Source: a virus. From it: 33,103 bases of DNA. Shown piece after piece: positions 1 to 16,112 of the stretch. The stretch spans positions 1 to 33,103 of the IMG/VR virus record IMGVR_UViG_3300029309_000158. One strand, written 5' to 3'. The position numbers and the translations under genes were made by a program. The notes beneath the pieces were generated by a model. That model had not been told where the DNA came from. It saw only the letters and a program-made list of their open reading frames with translations, and ran no database searches. The stretch's first letter is position 1. Each line of letters opens with the position of its first letter.

Positions 1-77
1 ACACTGGGGCAGGAGGTGTTTTATCAAATTTTACAGGTAATTTTATTTTTGAAAATCGTGCCGATGATAGTGATATT
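1..77 (+). repeat. 77-bp exact repeat, copy 1 (contig edge)
   Basis: Bases 1-77 are identical to 32517-32593 by direct comparison and the match stops abruptly at base 78 (G here, A in the other copy). Both copies lie in the same codon phase of the fibre gene. Beyond the match the two sequences are only as similar as other fibre modules. The other copy is 510 bases from the right-hand edge, so this is not a simple terminal repeat. Confidence 0.95.
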
Positions 78-3000
78 GTTTTTCAATGTGATGATGGATC
101 TGGTGGAGTTACTGAATACTTTAGACTAGATGGTGGTACTGTAAAATCAATTTTTAGTAAACCTGTTCAATTTATTGATAGTACAAAACTTTTTATAGGT
201 TCTTCAAATGACTTAGAAATATTTCACGATGGTTCAAATACTTATTTAGAAAATTATACAGGAGATTTTATTTTTACTCAAGCACTTGATGATGGTGATA
301 TGATATTTAAATGTGATAATGGAAGTGGGGGTACTACACCTTATTTAACATTAGATGGAAGTGATGTAAGAATAAACGTAAACGCAACTAATGGTATGCA
401 GTTTATGGATAATATACAAGCTAAATTTGGTACTAGTGGTGATTTTAAAATTAGCCACGATGGAAGCGATACTTATATACAAAATGTAACAAGTCATCTT
501 GTCATAGAAAACCAAGCAGATGATAAAGATATTATGTTTAGAAGTGATGACGGTAGTGGTGGAATAGCAGAATATTTTAGATTAGATGGTAGTGCTACAA
601 ATGTTGTATTTAGTAAAGATTTACTTGTAAACACGACAGGTGGTTATTTTGAAGTAGATGTTTCTGATAATTCTCTAAAACACGCTGACAATACGAAAGC
701 AAAGTATGGCACAGGTAATGATTTAGAAATATACCACGATGGCAGTAATAGTTTTATAAGAAATCTTAACACTAATTTAATTATAAAAAATGATTTTGAC
801 GATGGTGATATAATATTTGAATCAGATGACGGCTCAGGTAATATTGCTGAATACTTTAGGTTAGATGGTGGTAATGTAAATATGATTACAAGCGTTAATA
901 ACGTATTTGTTGATAACAAAAGAGTTGCCTTTGGTGATAGTGCTGATTTAGCTATTTATCATAACGGAACAACAAATAATATTGAATCTATAAACGGTAA
1001 GTTAAGATTAATACAAACAGAAGATGATGGTGATATTTCGTTTGAATCGGATGATGGCAGTGGTGGTATTACACCTTATTTAACATTAGATGGTAATAAT
1101 GTGCTAAATAAATTCCATCAAAACCTATACTTATTAGATAATGTTGGTTTAAAAATAGGTAACAGCTTTGATTTAGATATAAAACACGATGGTAGCGATA
1201 GTTATATACAAAATGCTACTGGCCATTTATATATAAAAAATAGTACTGATGATAAAGATATTATCTTCCAATGTGATGATGGAAGTGGAGGTACAACTAC
1301 ATATTTTTTCTTAGATGGTAGTATTCAAGCAAACAGATTTCAACAAAATGTTCTATTTGACGATAACATAAAAGCCTTATTTGGTGGTGGCTCTGGTGAT
1401 TTACAAATATATCACGATGGTAGTAATTCTTTTATAGCAAACACAACTGGAGTTTTAACGGTATCTAATACAGGTGGTGCTGTTACTGTTGACGCAGGTG
1501 GAGATGTTAATTTAGATGCAGGTGGAAATGACATAGTTTTAAAAGGTTCTGGTAGTGAATTTGGTAGATTAACTAATAGTTCTCAAAATTTTATTATCAA
1601 AAATACAAATGCCGATAAAGATATTATTTTACAAGCTGATAATGGTAGTGGTGGCGTAGCTGAATATTTTAGAGTTGATGGTGGTAATGAACACGTTGTA
1701 TATAGTAAACCAGTAATAATTTCAGACAATCTTTCTTTAAAATTTGGAGACGGTACCGATTTAGTAATTCAACATAATCAAAGTGCTTCATTAAATCAAA
1801 TTGACAATAATAATTTTGACCTTTATATTCAACAAAACGCTGCTGATAAAGATATTATATTTAGAGCTGATGATGGATCTGGTGGATTAGCAGAATATTT
1901 TAAGTTAGATGGCTCTGCTGTATTTACTAGATTTAGTAAAGATGCTAGATTTTCTGACAATGTAAGAGCTGAGTTTGGTGATTCAGGAGATTTAGATATT
2001 TATCACGATGCAACAGATTCTTTTATTGAAAGTAATACAGGTAATTTAAATATTGTAAATTATAATGATGATAAAGATATAATCTTTAAGTCTGATGATG
2101 GGAGTGGTGGTGTTACTGAATATTTTAGATTAGATGGAAGTTTAGCAGATGGTAACTATACATATACTACACGAAATGATGGAGGCGTTATTACTTTTGG
2201 TAATAGTTTAGATTTAAGGATTTGGAGAGATCCAATAGTAAATGATAGTTATATTAGAAATTATACTGATGATTTAATTATAGAAACTGTAGCTGATGAT
2301 AAAGATATAATATTTAATTGTGATGATGGCTCTGGTGGAGTAACTGAATACTTAAGATTAGATGGTAGCGAAAAACAAATTAAGTTTTCTGAAGATGCTG
2401 TTTTTGCAGATAGCAAAAGGCTTATGTTTGGTGCAGGTGGAGATTTACAAATACTGCATAACGCAACTGATAGCTCAATAACAAATACTACAGGAGATTT
2501 AGAAATAATACAAAACGCTGATAATAAAGATATTATTTTAAAATGCGATAATGGAAGTGGAGGTAATACACCTTATTTAACATTAGATGGTAGTAATGAA
2601 AGATTACAAGTAGATGCGCCTAACGGTATGCTATTTTCTGATAATATTCAAGCTAAATTTGGAACAAGTGGCGATTTAAAAATACATCACGATGGTAGTA
2701 ATTCTTTTATATCTGATACAGGTACAGGTGATTTGAGAATACTTGGTAGTGTAGTTAGGTTAAAATCAGCAGGAGATGAAAATATGATTGTTGCAGTTGA
2801 AAATGCAGGTGTAACATTATATCACAATGCATTGGCTAAACTTGTAACTACAAGTAGTGGAGTAGAAGTAACAGGCTTTACTGATGGTTCACTTGCTGAT
2901 ACAGGAGCTGGTTATAATGATGGTGTTGCAAGGTTTGTAAATTCAACAACGGCAACAAGTGGTGGTGCAGCAGTAATGAACGTAAGGAACAATTATGGTG

Positions 3001-3371
3001 CTGGTTTTGGTGGTTTAATAAAATTTTGGCGTACAAGCACAAGTTCTAGTGTAGGTAACATTTCATTTAATTCAGATGGTTCAGCAGTAAATTACAATAC
3101 AACATCTGATTATAGATTAAAAGAAGACTTACAAGATTTTGTTGGAATTGATTTAATTCAGCAAATAAAAGTATATGATTACAAATGGATTGATTATGAA
3201 TCAAGAAGTTATGGAGTATTGGCTCACGAGTTGCAAGAAGTTTTACCTGGTGCAGTAAGTGGTGAAAAAGATGATGAAGAAATGCAAGGTGTTGACTATT
3301 CAAAAGTTGTGCCTGTTTTAATAAAAGCAATACAAGAATTAAAAGCTGAAATAGAATTACTAAAAAAGTAG
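1..3371 (+). CDS. Giant tail fibre, C-terminal part with S74 intramolecular chaperone (5' truncated)
   Basis: The reading frame is open from base 3 at the window edge to the stop at 3369-3371, so the start lies outside the fragment; the first ATG at 300 is internal. About 1,120 residues are present. Eleven copies of a module are visible, mostly about 75 residues apart, each carrying an FG..GDL.IYHDGS segment, a DDKDIIF segment and a DDGSGG..EYFRLDG segment. Such beta-rich repeats are typical of phage fibre shafts. The last ~90 residues match the Peptidase_S74 chaperone (SDYRLKEDL, YGVLAHELQEVLP, GVDYSKVVPVLIKAIQEL). The Ser of SDYRLK (codon 3105-3107) and the Lys five residues later (3120-3122) match the self-cleavage dyad known from endosialidase chaperones. 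The domain should drive trimerisation and then be cut off, releasing about 88 residues. The N-terminal part of the same gene is probably at 32033-33103. Confidence 0.9.
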   Translation, partial: TGAGGVLSNFTGNFIFENRADDSDIVFQCDDGSGGVTEYFRLDGGTVKSIFSKPVQFIDSTKLFIGSSNDLEIFHDGSNTYLENYTGDFIFTQALDDGDMIFKCDNGSGGTTPYLTLDGSDVRINVNATNGMQFMDNIQAKFGTSGDFKISHDGSDTYIQNVTSHLVIENQADDKDIMFRSDDGSGGIAEYFRLDGSATNVVFSKDLLVNTTGGYFEVDVSDNSLKHADNTKAKYGTGNDLEIYHDGSNSFIRNLNTNLIIKNDFDDGDIIFESDDGSGNIAEYFRLDGGNVNMITSVNNVFVDNKRVAFGDSADLAIYHNGTTNNIESINGKLRLIQTEDDGDISFESDDGSGGITPYLTLDGNNVLNKFHQNLYLLDNVGLKIGNSFDLDIKHDGSDSYIQNATGHLYIKNSTDDKDIIFQCDDGSGGTTTYFFLDGSIQANRFQQNVLFDDNIKALFGGGSGDLQIYHDGSNSFIANTTGVLTVSNTGGAVTVDAGGDVNLDAGGNDIVLKGSGSEFGRLTNSSQNFIIKNTNADKDIILQADNGSGGVAEYFRVDGGNEHVVYSKPVIISDNLSLKFGDGTDLVIQHNQSASLNQIDNNNFDLYIQQNAADKDIIFRADDGSGGLAEYFKLDGSAVFTRFSKDARFSDNVRAEFGDSGDLDIYHDATDSFIESNTGNLNIVNYNDDKDIIFKSDDGSGGVTEYFRLDGSLADGNYTYTTRNDGGVITFGNSLDLRIWRDPIVNDSYIRNYTDDLIIETVADDKDIIFNCDDGSGGVTEYLRLDGSEKQIKFSEDAVFADSKRLMFGAGGDLQILHNATDSSITNTTGDLEIIQNADNKDIILKCDNGSGGNTPYLTLDGSNERLQVDAPNGMLFSDNIQAKFGTSGDLKIHHDGSNSFISDTGTGDLRILGSVVRLKSAGDENMIVAVENAGVTLYHNALAKLVTTSSGVEVTGFTDGSLADTGAGYNDGVARFVNSTTATSGGAAVMNVRNNYGAGFGGLIKFWRTSTSSSVGNISFNSDGSAVNYNTTSDYRLKEDLQDFVGIDLIQQIKVYDYKWIDYESRSYGVLAHELQEVLPGAVSGEKDDEEMQGVDYSKVVPVLIKAIQELKAEIELLKK

Positions 3372-11398: not shown

Positions 11399-11718
11399 AC
11401 ATAGATCAAAGAGTATATTATGAATCACAATTTAATTTAATTGGCCACACTTTATGCAAATATTTTGAAAAATTAAATGCAGATGATCCTAGAAGAAAAC
11501 AGCTAGGCTCAATGATGAGGTGTCTTACAAATATGTACACTTTCACCAATACGCTGATGATAGATGATATGTATAAAACAAAAAAACTACAAAAATTAAT
11601 TAATGATTATAATAAAGACACACAACAATTAAATAATAAAATTAATGAACTCAATACAATTATTAGATTCCACAACCTGGAACAAAGCAGATTTGCTGAA
11701 AGAAATGATGAGCGATGA
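11395..11718 (+). CDS. Helical hypothetical protein (107 aa)
   Basis: Starts at an ATGA overlap with the nuclease-like gene. The product (MNIDQRVYYESQFNLIGHTL ...) is nearly all helix: an aromatic N-terminal bundle (CKYFEKLNADDPRRKQLGSM) and a C-terminal coiled coil (KKLQKLINDYNKDTQQLNNK, INELNTII). It overlaps the start of the exonuclease-like gene by 74 bases if that gene starts at its first ATG. I do not recognise the family; an accessory subunit of the downstream nuclease is possible by position. Confidence 0.55.
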   Translation: MNIDQRVYYESQFNLIGHTLCKYFEKLNADDPRRKQLGSMMRCLTNMYTFTNTLMIDDMYKTKKLQKLINDYNKDTQQLNNKINELNTIIRFHNLEQSRFAERNDER

Positions 11719-12451
11719 TTTTTACTACAACTATTTAGGCAAAGCAGCACTAAGCAGCTCTATTGTCAAGAAATTATTGAAAAGCCCTAAAAGTTATTAT
11801 TACACTATGAAGTACGGCAACCCTATGACATCGGCATTAAGAATGGGTAGGCTTTTGCATCAATCAATATTAGAGCCACACCTATTTGAAAAATACACTT
11901 TTGTAGAATGCAAATCAAGAACGGCTAAAGTATTTAGAGATACCATAAAAGAAAACGAAGGCAAAGAACACACAATATTTACTGCCAAAGAAAAATCAGA
12001 AACTGAAAGACTGCAAGATGCGTTGCTAAAAAACGAATCAGCACTAAGATTGATGGGTGATTCAGAGTTTGAAGTTCCAGCAATTGATATGATTAAGGGC
12101 ATTCCTTTTCGTGGTAAGGCTGATATAATAGCTGAAAATAAAATGGTAGATATAAAAACCACTTCTTCGATCGATAACTTTGTGAATAAAAGATCACAGT
12201 TTAGCGCATATGCTTTTGATTACGACATACAAGTTTACATTTATTGTGAGCTTTTTGGCAGACCATATAATCAGTTTAAATTTCTTGTGATAGACAAACA
12301 AACACTTGACATCGGTATATTTGGAGTAAGCGAAGAATTTTATTTAAGTGGAATGCAAAAAACATTTCAAGCAATAGAAAGGTACAAACAATTTTTTAAC
12401 ACTGATAACGAAATAGATTTAAATAGTTACACAATAAACGGAATATTATGA
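11645..12451 (+). CDS. RecE/Exo VIII-like PD-(D/E)XK exonuclease (DUF3799-type)
   Basis: A protein of 268 residues. Recognisable segments are YLGKAALSSSIVKKLLKSPK (the 'alSsS.ik.ll.sP..y' entry of PDDEXK_1/DUF3799 proteins), ALRMGRLLHQSILEP (the His/Gly helix), IPFRGKADIIAENKMVDIKT (catalytic Asp and DxK), and SQFSAYAFDYDIQVYIYCEL. These match phage exonucleases of the RecE/RecB-nuclease group, which resect double-strand ends for single-strand annealing. An annealing partner was not recognised, though the possible OB-fold protein at 8032 is a candidate. The start may alternatively be the ATG at 11705, which would cut the overlap with the previous gene to 14 bases. Confidence 0.78.
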   Translation: MNSIQLLDSTTWNKADLLKEMMSDDFYYNYLGKAALSSSIVKKLLKSPKSYYYTMKYGNPMTSALRMGRLLHQSILEPHLFEKYTFVECKSRTAKVFRDTIKENEGKEHTIFTAKEKSETERLQDALLKNESALRLMGDSEFEVPAIDMIKGIPFRGKADIIAENKMVDIKTTSSIDNFVNKRSQFSAYAFDYDIQVYIYCELFGRPYNQFKFLVIDKQTLDIGIFGVSEEFYLSGMQKTFQAIERYKQFFNTDNEIDLNSYTINGIL

Positions 12452-13020
12452 TAGTAGATATTAGCAAAGTAAAATACAACTCAAAAAACCCTAGAATAAT
12501 TAAAGATTATAAGTTTAAAAAGCTGGTAAAAAGCCTGAAAGATTTTCCTGAAATGCTAGAAAAAAGACCAATTGTAGTAGATGAGGATATGATTGTGCTT
12601 GGTGGTAATATGAGATTAAAGGCTTGCCACGCAGCAGGTTTTTCAACAGTTCATATTTTAGTAGCAGAGGGCTGGACTGATGAACAAAAAGATGAATTTA
12701 TAATTAAAGATAATAGCAGCTTTGGTGAATGGGACTGGGATATTTTAGCAAACGAATGGAACCCAAGCCAAATAAACGACTGGGGCTTAGATCTGCCAAA
12801 GGTATATTTTGAAGATGAGGAAGAGCCACAGCTTGACAAAGATATATTTGATCACGAGTTGGATACATATATCAACGCAAAAATAAAGCAGATTACTTTA
12901 TATTTTAATTCTGATGAATATGAAAAGGCTATAGAAGATTTAGAAAAAATCAGAGATAAAGAAAATCTGACTGACAACACGCAAGTATTTAAATTTTTGA
13001 TAAAGAAATATGGACTATAA
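12448..13020 (+). CDS. ParB/Srx-like domain protein
   Basis: A protein of 190 residues. The N-terminal ~95 residues form a ParB-like domain: DISKVKYNSKNPRIIKDYKF, then KKLVKSLKDFPEMLEKRPIV, then the key GGNMRLKA box at residues 52-59, then TDEQKDEFIIKDNSSFGEWD. This N-domain is found in phage proteins fused or adjacent to DNA methylases and base-modification enzymes, and related domains bind or hydrolyse nucleotides. The C-terminal half is a separate helical region with no recognised enzyme. Neighbouring a TET-associated glycosyltransferase and a TET/JBP dioxygenase, it is probably the DNA-recruiting or regulatory component of the hypermodification cassette. ATGA overlap links it to the exonuclease. 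Confidence 0.78.
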   Translation: MIVDISKVKYNSKNPRIIKDYKFKKLVKSLKDFPEMLEKRPIVVDEDMIVLGGNMRLKACHAAGFSTVHILVAEGWTDEQKDEFIIKDNSSFGEWDWDILANEWNPSQINDWGLDLPKVYFEDEEEPQLDKDIFDHELDTYINAKIKQITLYFNSDEYEKAIEDLEKIRDKENLTDNTQVFKFLIKKYGL

Positions 13021-13753
13021 AATTGCCATACCCTCTTATAAAAGATCTGAAACAATTAAAAACAAAACTTTAAAATTGTTAAATGATTATGGCATAGACA
13101 AAAAACGCATTACAATATTTGTGGCAAATAAAGAAGAAGAAACAATTTATAAAAACAGTTTACAAGATGAATATAAAATAGTAGTAGGCGTGCCAACAAT
13201 TGGAAAGCAAAGGAACTATATAGAAAAATATTATGAGGAAGATGTGTTATTAATGATGTTTGATGATGACTTAGATGGTATTTATAGAAAAAATAAAAAA
13301 AAATTAGATGCTGTAGATGATTTAGAAGAAGAATTTATTTTTAAGGGTTTTAATTATTGTTTAAAATATAATGTAAATATTTTTGGTTTATATGCAGCAG
13401 CAAACCCTTTTTTTATGAAAAGAAAAATCTATACAAAACTATGTTATATACCTGGAGGTGTTTTTGGAATTAAAGTAAAGCACGATCCTTTTTTAGAAAG
13501 GGTTACAAATCACGGTGAAGATTATGAATACAGCATTAGACAATACATAAAAAACAAAGCATTAATACGATTTGATTATTTAACAATAAAGTCAAAATTT
13601 TTTAAAGAACAGGGTGGCTTACAAACAATAAGAACAAAAAAATACATATATGATTCAATTTATCAAATACAAAGTATGTTTCCACAATTTTGTAAAATGT
13701 ATATTAGAAAATCAACAGGCAACGCAGAATTAAGGTTAAAAGATATGAGATGA
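13010..13753 (+). CDS. TET-associated-type glycosyltransferase (GT-A fold)
   Basis: A protein of 247 residues. The N-terminus reads MDYKIAIPSYKRSETIKNKT, the 'IaIPSykR...i..kTL' nucleotide-sugar-binding start of this family. Next come ITIFVANKEEETIYK, the basic GKQRNYIEKY (65-74), and a DDD metal motif in MFDDDLDGIY (residues 85-87). A later GGVFGIKV and NHGEDYEYSIRQ ('E/D-D..~' acceptor-site region) complete the GT-A layout. Family members, called TAGTs, are found beside TET/JBP oxygenases in phages and add sugars to hydroxymethylated bases in DNA. Immediate coupling to a dioxygenase here (4-base overlap) supports that role. Sugar donor and target base are not determinable from sequence. Confidence 0.75.
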   Translation: MDYKIAIPSYKRSETIKNKTLKLLNDYGIDKKRITIFVANKEEETIYKNSLQDEYKIVVGVPTIGKQRNYIEKYYEEDVLLMMFDDDLDGIYRKNKKKLDAVDDLEEEFIFKGFNYCLKYNVNIFGLYAAANPFFMKRKIYTKLCYIPGGVFGIKVKHDPFLERVTNHGEDYEYSIRQYIKNKALIRFDYLTIKSKFFKEQGGLQTIRTKKYIYDSIYQIQSMFPQFCKMYIRKSTGNAELRLKDMR

Positions 13754-14631
13754 AAAGAATAGACGTAGAAAGAAAAGAAATAAATAAAAAAGATTATATT
13801 AGAAGAACTGCTAGATTAAGTGATGTGTCAAGGCATATTAAAGAGGATGCAATTGTATATCATAATGGAAAGCCGATATTATTATACAAAGTATTATCAA
13901 CACCACCAAAAGATGTTAGATGGGCAGTAAAAAATATTAAGTATTCAACAGGCAAAAGAACACACGGACTAGTAAACACAAGTGCGGTTTTTGGATATAG
14001 CCCAAGACAAGAAAACAAACACGACTATTGCACCTCATCAGCTATGGGATATAATACACCAAAGCAACACTACATAATTAGCAACTTTGCCAAACAAATA
14101 CAAAAATATTATAAAGACTACTTTCACGAAACATATAAACAACATAAAGAAAAAGTAAAAGAAAAAGTAAAAGATCAATGGGTAATAAAAGATACAGTAT
14201 TCACAAGTGGCATAGTAAATAAAAACAATCAACTTAAATACCATTTTGATAGTGGTAATTTTAAAAACGTATATAGCAATATGCTTGTATTTAAAAGTGA
14301 TGTAATGGGTGGGCATTTAGTTATACCAGAAATAGATATATCATTAGAGGTTGCCGACAACAGCGTTACTATATTTGATGGTCAAGATTTATTGCACGGA
14401 GTTAGCCCAATTGATTATAACAACTCAAAGGCATATAGATATAGTATTGTTTATTATTCTTTAGAACGTATGTGGCAGTGTATGACAATTGAAGAAGAAG
14501 TAGATAGAATCAGAGAAAAGAAAATGATACGAGAACAAAACAGATTGAAGCCAGAACACCTTGATACTCTGCGACAAAGAAAAAAAGAAGCCAAAGATTA
14601 TAAAGATAAAATAGAAGATGAACAAAAGTGA
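13750..14631 (+). CDS. TET/JBP-like 2-oxoglutarate, Fe(II)-dependent DNA base dioxygenase
   Basis: A protein of 293 residues. The double-stranded beta-helix ligands are visible: HxD at His165/Asp167 in LKYHFDSGN, the distal His216 in DGQDLLHGVSPI, and Arg230 in AYRYSIVYYSLE for 2-oxoglutarate. Family-typical supporting segments are THGLVNTSAVFGYSPR (68-86), FTSGIVN, and GGHLVIPEIDISLEVADNSV. These match phage TET/JBP enzymes, which hydroxylate the 5-methyl group of 5-methylcytosine or thymine. The C-terminal ~45 residues are a charged helix (EEEVDRIREKKMIREQNRLK ...), possibly a docking tail. No cytosine-C5 methyltransferase is visible in the window, so whether it acts on thymine or on 5-methylcytosine made elsewhere is open. 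Confidence 0.82.
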   Translation: MKRIDVERKEINKKDYIRRTARLSDVSRHIKEDAIVYHNGKPILLYKVLSTPPKDVRWAVKNIKYSTGKRTHGLVNTSAVFGYSPRQENKHDYCTSSAMGYNTPKQHYIISNFAKQIQKYYKDYFHETYKQHKEKVKEKVKDQWVIKDTVFTSGIVNKNNQLKYHFDSGNFKNVYSNMLVFKSDVMGGHLVIPEIDISLEVADNSVTIFDGQDLLHGVSPIDYNNSKAYRYSIVYYSLERMWQCMTIEEEVDRIREKKMIREQNRLKPEHLDTLRQRKKEAKDYKDKIEDEQK

Positions 14632-14977
14632 ACATATAAAAAAGGCACTAATTGAAGCATTAGAAAAATCATTAGGCATTGTAACTACTGCGTGTAAACA
14701 AGTGGGCATTGGTAGAACTACCTTTTATAATTATTACAATGATGATTTGGAATTTAAAGCACAAGTAGATGATATAGCTAATATGAGTTTGGACTTTGCC
14801 GAAAGCAAACTACTAGAGCAAATTAAAGACAACTCAACAGCAGCCACTATATTTTATTTAAAAACAAAAGGCAAGAAAAGAGGCTATGTGGAAAGACAAG
14901 AGATTACTGGTGCTGATGGTGTGCCAACAAATGTAAAAATAGAAATAATTAAAAATGCAGATAAGCCTAAAAACTAA
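14618..14977 (+). CDS. terS: Terminase small subunit (HTH)
   Basis: A protein of 119 residues. The N-terminus has a helix-turn-helix of the terminase/TetR-like type: IKKALIEALEKSLGIVTTAC then KQVGIGRTTFYNYYNDDLEF. The following helix (DIANMSLDFAESKLLEQIKD) and AATIFYLKTKGKKRGYVERQ are hallmarks of small terminase subunits in Bacteroidota phages ('aai.flKt.gK.RGY.ErqEi'). It recognises the packaging site on concatemeric DNA and hands it to the large subunit, whose gene overlaps by 23 bases. It also overlaps the dioxygenase by 14 bases, so DNA modification and packaging genes are in one unit. Confidence 0.82.
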   Translation: MNKSEHIKKALIEALEKSLGIVTTACKQVGIGRTTFYNYYNDDLEFKAQVDDIANMSLDFAESKLLEQIKDNSTAATIFYLKTKGKKRGYVERQEITGADGVPTNVKIEIIKNADKPKN

Positions 14978-16112
14978 TATTGTATTTGAACATTTAGTAA
15001 ACAGCAAAAAAAAAATAATAGTCAATCAAGGTGGAACCAGATCAGGAAAAACATTTAATATTATTTTATATATTATTTTTTATTATTGTCTTAATAACTC
15101 TGGTAAGACTATCACAATTTGTCGTAAGACTTACCCAGCATTAAGAGCAACGGTACTTAGAGATTTTATAAACATATTGCGTGAGCATAATTTATACAAC
15201 GAAGATAACCACAACAAATCAAGCAGCGAGTATAATCTTTTTGGAAACCTAATTGAATTTATATCATTAGATCAGCCTGTAAAAGTACGAGGAAGAAAGC
15301 GTGATTTATTATTTATAAACGAAGCTAACGAATTATACTGGGAAGATTGGCAGCAATTGTTATTTAGAACAAGCGAAAAGATAATACTTGATTATAACCC
15401 AAGTGAAGAATATCACTGGATATACGACAAAATAATACCACGAGAAGATACAGACTTTTTAAAAACCACATACAAAGACAACCCCTTTTTAGAACAATCA
15501 TTAGTTGAAGAAATAGAAAGGCTACAATACACCGATGAACAATACTGGCAAATATATGGGCTGGGTGAAAAGGGAATAAGCAAAGCCACAATATTTAATT
15601 ACGTGGAATGTAATCTGATACCAGAAGATGCCGAGTTTGTTTCTATGGGTATGGACTTTGGCTTTACAAACGATCCCACGGCATTAGTATCGGTATGGAA
15701 GAAAGAATCAAACCTATATATAAAAGAATTATTATACAGAACAATGATGACAACAGGCGACATACATAGTTATTTTAAACAAACAATAACAAAAGAATTA
15801 ATATATGCCGATAGTAGTGAGCCACGAATAATTGAAGAATTAAGGCGTATGGGCTGGAAGATCCGTGCTAGTTTAAAAGGCAGAGATAGCGTAAACGCAG
15901 GTATTGATTTATTGAAAAGGTTTAAAATTCATATACACAAAGATAGTACCAATGCGATTCAGGAGTTCAGGAACTATAAATGGAAAGAGGATAAAACAGG
16001 TAAGCTAACCAACACGCCAGAAGATAAAAACAATCACATAACAGATGCAGTACGATATGCAACCTACTCAATATTAAGCAAACCAAACTTTGGAAAATAT
16101 GCTATTAGGTAA
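14955..16112 (+). CDS. terL: Terminase large subunit
   Basis: A protein of 385 residues, slightly shorter than many PBSX/Terminase_3 homologues. The ATPase has Walker A GGTRSGKT (residues 26-33) and Walker B LLFINEAN (118-125, with Glu123). The RNase-H-like nuclease has Asp234 in MGMDFGFTNDPTALV, Asp286 in ELIYADSSEP and Asp364 in HITDAVRYATYSI. All expected catalytic positions are present. The protein pumps DNA into the procapsid through the portal and cuts it. The portal gene is unusually far downstream, at 29686. A promoter-like leader begins right after the stop. Confidence 0.95.
   Translation: MQISLKTNIVFEHLVNSKKKIIVNQGGTRSGKTFNIILYIIFYYCLNNSGKTITICRKTYPALRATVLRDFINILREHNLYNEDNHNKSSSEYNLFGNLIEFISLDQPVKVRGRKRDLLFINEANELYWEDWQQLLFRTSEKIILDYNPSEEYHWIYDKIIPREDTDFLKTTYKDNPFLEQSLVEEIERLQYTDEQYWQIYGLGEKGISKATIFNYVECNLIPEDAEFVSMGMDFGFTNDPTALVSVWKKESNLYIKELLYRTMMTTGDIHSYFKQTITKELIYADSSEPRIIEELRRMGWKIRASLKGRDSVNAGIDLLKRFKIHIHKDSTNAIQEFRNYKWKEDKTGKLTNTPEDKNNHITDAVRYATYSILSKPNFGKYAIR

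Follow-up and report, generated by a model that had tools for sequence, protein, structure and literature searches.

A phage operon of ParB-like, TET-associated glycosyltransferase and TET/JBP dioxygenase genes that very likely places a sugar on DNA, with thymine as the likeliest base

Neighborhoods combining TET/JBP dioxygenases with TET-associated glycosyltransferases (TAGTs) are said to have been assigned predicted roles in DNA modification by Iyer et al. in 2013. The association of a ParB-like gene, a TET gene and terminase genes, with or without a TAGT gene, is already present in named actinophages and is not itself new. The leading operon of KayaCho reads ParB-TET-terminase, that of Wooper ParB-TET-ADDT-kinase-terminase, where ADDT is an amino-acid:DNA transferase, and that of Indlovu ParB-TET-TAGT-PIG-L deacetylase-Ploopntkinase3-terminase, an order matched in Rich. 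Actinophage TET operons with ADDT and kinase genes are described as thymine hypermodification in PMC11955845. This report concerns an operon in a 33,103-nucleotide stretch of viral DNA, positions 1 to 33,103 of IMG/VR record IMGVR_UViG_3300029309_000158 (hereafter the window; the record is 33,747 bases long, with Ns past 33103), in which a TAGT gene lies between the ParB-like gene and the TET gene (Table 1). Judging from their sequences, these three linked genes very likely serve to glycosylate a base in the phage's own DNA. What is new here is the phage group, an unusual pattern of gene exchange in the slot between ParB and TET, and thymine as the likeliest modified base.

The TET protein scored 43.4 bits against the PF12851 profile, above the curated cut-off of 34.9, and its ligands H165, D167, H216 and R230 are invariant across 21 aligned relatives. 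An AlphaFold2 model of moderate quality (predicted local distance difference test, pLDDT, 73.6; predicted template modeling score, pTM, 0.67) has the predicted TET-type double-stranded β-helix fold, and its Foldseek matches at E ≤ 0.001 were CcTET, NgTET1, CMD1 and TET2 only. Since all of these are TET/JBP proteins, a prolyl-hydroxylase-type oxygenase, which an earlier note on this DNA had raised as a competing identity, is ruled out. The TAGT protein scored 55.0 bits against PF20691 (curated cut-off 27.5) and also matched phrog_842 (beta-glucosyl-HMC-alpha-glucosyltransferase). Its model (pLDDT 81.1, pTM 0.82) is predicted by structure matching to have a generic GT-A fold with a DxD-type motif, and a profile search of solved structures with this protein gave no match. 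Although the fold matches alone are generic, TAGT was the best sequence family, which speaks against the cell-surface glycosyltransferase that the note had likewise entertained; the protein would be expected to transfer a sugar to a 5-hydroxymethylpyrimidine in DNA. The ParB-like protein is recognized by PHROGs (phrog_620, E 1.4e-23) but not by Pfam ParB_N (PF02195), where its 14.6 bits lie under the cut-off of 26.3, so that of the three gene identities first proposed, TAGT and TET/JBP stand above their Pfam cut-offs and the third stands by PHROGs only. All of the motifs listed in the earlier note were found, namely GGNMRLKA in the ParB-like protein, IPSYKR, GKQRNY and DDD in the TAGT, and the four TET ligands. 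The three consecutive genes that it described as overlapping and running into the terminase genes do so, at 13010-13020 (ParB/TAGT), 13750-13753 (TAGT/TET, ATGA), 14618-14631 (TET/TerS) and 14955-14977 (TerS/TerL). Its DNA-glycosylation reading gains backing from the TAGT profile match and the predicted TET/JBP fold.

Many RefSeq phage records, including NC_022061.1 gp2 and those of other cluster B mycobacteriophages, name TET/JBP dioxygenases "queuine tRNA-ribosyltransferase," and one record labels such an enzyme DpdA-like. The queuine name, which is also that of phrog_6059 and of RefSeq matches, was ruled out as an identity for the window protein; proteins so named can be aligned to the window TET and retain the ligand residues, and the name looks like a propagated annotation error. 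A search of NCBIfam gave no match. The residue five positions past the first iron ligand is N170 in the window TET and D in the clade of the Nonlabens phage P12024L. Known 5-methylcytosine (5mC) enzymes have either N or D at this position, and the residue was discarded as an indicator of substrate.

The frame in which these genes lie is strongly conserved. In a family set of 102 loci, ParB was found upstream of TET in 68 of 68 loci having at least 2.8 kb of upstream sequence, and a large terminase subunit gene on the same strand lay downstream of TET in 62 of 64 loci having at least 2 kb of downstream sequence; the ParB-TET-terminase order is conserved far beyond chance. Dozens of actinophages show this order beside the terminase, some with a TAGT gene and some lacking it, and the minimal gene set and terminase coupling that the earlier note pointed out are therefore not peculiar to this phage. 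A scan of bacterial genomes returned just two loci, both in metagenome-assembled genomes (MAGs). On an Ignavibacteria MAG contig (L117:1843-4224) the order is ParB-TAGT-TET, with a TET of 46–47% identity, and no large terminase of this family lies within 6 kb downstream. An actinophage-like arrangement, ParB-TET-glycosyltransferase, with the glycosyltransferase gene after TET rather than before it, was seen at L085:5355-7717.

Within this fixed frame, the position between ParB and TET is occupied by a decorating gene that has been repeatedly exchanged among close relatives. At a 38% identity threshold, eight slot types were distinguished: the window-type TAGT, five more glycosyltransferase-like types, one type without a Pfam family, possibly a GT-B, and one cassette of ADDT, flavin adenine dinucleotide (FAD) oxidoreductase and kinase genes. 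One of the five glycosyltransferase-like types is near TAGT (98.5% probability in profile comparison), another is matched by the window TAGT at 26% identity, and the remaining three have weaker profile support. On the TET tree, slot type changes at least 17 times against a theoretical minimum of seven, a count that could be somewhat too high given the unresolved forks of this tree. Swaps occur between loci with TET proteins 97–100% identical. The slot proteins of L039 and L041 are unrelated, though their TETs are 100% and their ParB proteins 93% identical, and swaps also separate L054 from L057 and L026 from L032, each pair with TETs 98% identical. At the DNA level, the window and L007 are about 96% identical on either flank and 37–54% identical across the slot gene, while divergence from L006 (69–89% identity) is confined to about 13100-13700 within the TAGT gene, with ParB and TET at 96–98.5%. 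When L006 and L010 are taken together, the TAGT core is about 69–89% and the ParB and TET genes 93–98.5% identical to the window. The TAGT protein is also, at 76.9%, the least conserved of all genes shared with the related record G001 apart from the tail-fibre genes. These exchanges would amount to changes of sugar, and the simplest account may be that defenses recognizing one sugar select for another.

Additional sugar-related genes were seen in several of the loci L039-L060 between the gene for a DUF3799 protein and ParB (e.g., L039:1692-3992); inspected by eye, they comprise an apparent GT-B, a GT-A-like gene and an S-adenosylmethionine methyltransferase, and other relatives have a Gly_transf_sug gene (L065:4002-4730, PF04488). 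The genes upstream of ParB suggest longer or methylated glycans.

The question of which base is modified was approached through gene content. Two further records, G001 and G002, are circular permutations with all window open reading frames except two small ones, and the TET of G001 is 99.7% identical to that of the window. Because the window record, G001 and G002 are mutual circular permutations, all three (~33.5 kb) were taken as gene-complete. Profile searches of these three records found no C5 cytosine methyltransferase (PF00145), no ADDT (PF18724) or 5-hydroxymethyluracil (5hmU) kinase (PF18751), and no thymidylate-synthase-type enzyme; the methyltransferase of L034, used as a query in a search without a positive control, also had no match in them. 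Thymidylate-synthase-type enzymes are needed for production of 5hmU at the nucleotide level. Relatives of the operon, in turn, carry thymidine genes. The operon of L075, L078 and L079, whose TET is 57% identical to that of the window, reads ParB-ADDT-FAD oxidoreductase-P-loop kinase-TET-TerS, and that of L153 (TET 53% identical) reads ParB-TET-GATase-GNAT-ADDT (74.9 bits)-kinase-TerS-TerL. The ADDT scores in these loci range from 34 to 75 bits (cut-off 26.2). In the distant flavophage-type TET clade, L102 has an ADDT scoring 84.5 bits in one search and without a family in another, and its kinase is a homolog of the L075 enzyme. ADDT and kinase genes of this kind belong to the hypermodification of thymidine (Lee et al., 2018, 2022, as cited in PMC11955845). 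The window TET is 28–32% identical to actinophage TETs, sharing W/FTSGxxN...YHxDxxNF...GGHLxxP...HGVxPI, and the operons of the aligned actinophage enzymes carry ADDT and Ploopntkinase3. From the lack of a C5 methyltransferase and a thymidylate-synthase-type enzyme, and from the ADDT and kinase genes of relatives, thymine appears the likeliest substrate, which would be converted to 5hmU and then to a glycosyl-5hmU resembling base J, rather than a product of 5mC being made. The earlier note had proposed a sugar-modified base and left its identity open; the glycosylation is backed and the gene content favors thymine. A glutamine amidotransferase domain and a GNAT acetyltransferase stand beside the ADDT and kinase genes at L153:1705-6991 and possibly build a new thymidine decoration.

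The operon is proposed, with a probability of roughly 0.64, to encode a two-step DNA writer, in which thymine is hydroxylated and then given a sugar, with a ParB-like helper. The TET enzyme would hydroxylate thymine already in the phage DNA to 5hmU, as does trypanosome JBP, and the TAGT would use a nucleotide sugar of the host to glycosylate the 5-hydroxymethyl group, yielding a base-J-like glycosyl-5hmU. The gene set can be so small because the thymine route requires neither a methyltransferase nor a nucleotide-level enzyme. The ParB-like protein might bind phage DNA and load or confine the TET there, a role suggested because ParB stays with TET whichever decorating gene is present. Expression just before the terminase would complete modification ahead of packaging, the modification would protect virion DNA from host nucleases or restriction, and defenses recognizing one sugar would lead to exchange of the decorating gene.

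Several points weigh against this proposal. The role given to ParB is a guess, the substrate argument draws on neighbors in relatives rather than on the window enzyme, and the kinases of L075 and L153, though related to the 5hmU kinase family, fall under the Pfam cut-off for Ploopntkinase3. A profile search of solved structures also turned up no close homolog of the TET, returning CMD1 at E 0.21 only. Furthermore, in loci L032-L034 the TET and terminase genes are separated by a C5-methyltransferase-like gene (that of L034 scores 38.6 bits against PF00145), and the TETs of L032 and L033 are 97–98% identical to TETs without a neighboring methyltransferase, so that these enzymes may use 5mC too. 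This gene is short (about 199 amino acids), with PPCQ and ENV motifs (e.g., L034:6863-7462), and a homolog lies upstream of a distant TET at L111:1883-2536.

The foremost alternative, which we consider unlikely, is that TET oxidizes 5mC, made by a host methyltransferase or, in a few relatives, by a phage C5 methyltransferase, to 5-hydroxymethylcytosine (5hmC), which the TAGT then glycosylates. It draws on the methyltransferase-like genes adjoining TET in L032-L034 and near the distant TET in L111, and on published phage TETs with methyltransferase partners, which act on 5mC (Burke et al., 2021, as cited in PMC12730594). The window phage and its two permuted counterparts have no such gene, however, and a search of 42 records with PF00145 gave matches in only two, of which one fell under the cut-off; a host methyltransferase could supply 5mC, yet would mark its own sites only, and the ADDT and kinase genes of relatives fit 5hmU, not 5hmC. 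More doubtful still is a TET that accepts both 5-methylpyrimidines, with thymine as the bulk substrate and a sporadic methyltransferase adding cytosine sites: the near identity of TETs with and without a methyltransferase neighbor, in a family whose related operons hold thymidine genes, allows for it, but it requires broad specificity. Decoration of a virion protein or the cell surface by the glycosyltransferase, leaving only TET to act on DNA, is very improbable. GT-A folds are general, and the nearest structural matches are enzymes with other acceptors, but the best sequence family is TET-associated, phrog_842 is also matched, and the gene sits between ParB and TET where DNA-modifying ADDT genes replace it in a relative.

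Table 1. Features of the operon and adjoining genes, in window coordinates.
Feature	Position	Strand	Basis or remark
DUF3799 PD-(D/E)XK exonuclease-like protein	11645..12451	+	PF12684 E 9.8e-20; 4-nt overlap with ParB
ParB-like protein, 190 aa	12448..13020	+	PHROGs ParB-like E about 1e-23
TAGT glycosyltransferase, 247 aa, GT-A fold (predicted)	13010..13753	+	PF20691 E 1.4e-14
TAGT diverged core	13100..13700	+	Sliding DNA identity against L006 and L010
TAGT DDD motif, residues 85-87	13262..13270	+	Invariant in TAGT alignment; metal and nucleotide-sugar site expected
TET/JBP 2-oxoglutarate dioxygenase, 293 aa	13750..14631	+	PF12851 E 2.8e-11
TET HxD iron ligands H165, D167	14242..14250	+	Invariant in TET alignment
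TET third iron ligand H216	14395..14397	+	Invariant in TET alignment
TET 2-oxoglutarate-binding R230	14437..14439	+	Invariant in TET alignment
Terminase small subunit (TerS)	14618..14977	+	phrog_4102 E 5.2e-6; HTH_8; 14-nt overlap with TET
Terminase large subunit (TerL)	14955..16112	+	Terminase_3 E 3.3e-21; Terminase_3C E 2.7e-21

The DUF3799 gene is the usual upstream neighbor of the operon and is kept in many relatives; its product is outside the modification chemistry. The portal protein matches only that of Nonlabens phages P12024S/L (39%), and phages of Bacteroides, Parabacteroides and Flavobacterium are among the best matches of the large terminase (36–37%). Given these matches, a host among the Bacteroidota is likely for this small, marine-type phage, as had been supposed earlier. 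Both ends of the record (1-3371 and 32033-33747) lie inside one repetitive tail-fibre gene whose 3′ end encodes an S74 chaperone domain; among relatives this gene shows 35–59% amino acid identity, a divergence far above that of other genes.

A broader picture, to which we assign slightly less than an even chance, is that of a Bacteroidota-type phage family with base-J-like DNA made from a ParB-TET frame, in which the swappable slot gives relatives different sugars or amino-acid-derived groups, in the manner of serotypes, under pressure from modification-dependent defenses. If true, glycosyl-5hmU DNA would occur outside eukaryotes and come from a minimal two-enzyme set, and these phages would form a natural series of nearly identical members differing only in the base-decorating enzyme. 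The sugar recognized by a given host defense would then become directly testable, and the slot genes would provide a panel of DNA glycosyltransferases differing in specificity. The ParB-like partner of phage TETs, kept in every relative checked, is a clear target for study.

Among known systems, the nearest named relatives by portal, P12024S/L, include in P12024L a TET followed by a TAGT, but their TET belongs to another clade (29% identity), with no annotated adjoining ParB and an N6/N4 methyltransferase downstream. Mycobacterium phages Indlovu, Rich and Acadian (cluster B) resemble the window in that the ParB-like, TET and TAGT genes immediately precede the terminase, the TAGT being 33–34% and the TET about 31% identical; they differ in the placement of TAGT after TET, the extra PIG-L deacetylase and Ploopntkinase3 genes and their nature as 70 kb actinophages, and TETs of this type are often annotated as queuine tRNA-ribosyltransferase. 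The thymidine hypermodification systems of Gordonia phage Wooper and Rhodococcus phage Tonitrus share a ParB-like gene and TET in the leading operon and an expected 5hmU intermediate (PMC11955845, citing Lee et al., 2018, 2022), whereas ADDT and 5hmU kinase rather than a sugar provide the decoration and TAGT is absent from the Wooper record. The phage 5mC pathway (Burke et al., 2021) has the same pairing of TET and glycosyltransferase, together with a C5 methyltransferase that the window phage lacks. The trypanosome base J pathway (JBP1/2 and JGT) is a eukaryotic chromatin mark affecting about 1% of T, and it is likened to the window by the chemistry proposed here, in which thymine would be hydroxylated and then glycosylated.

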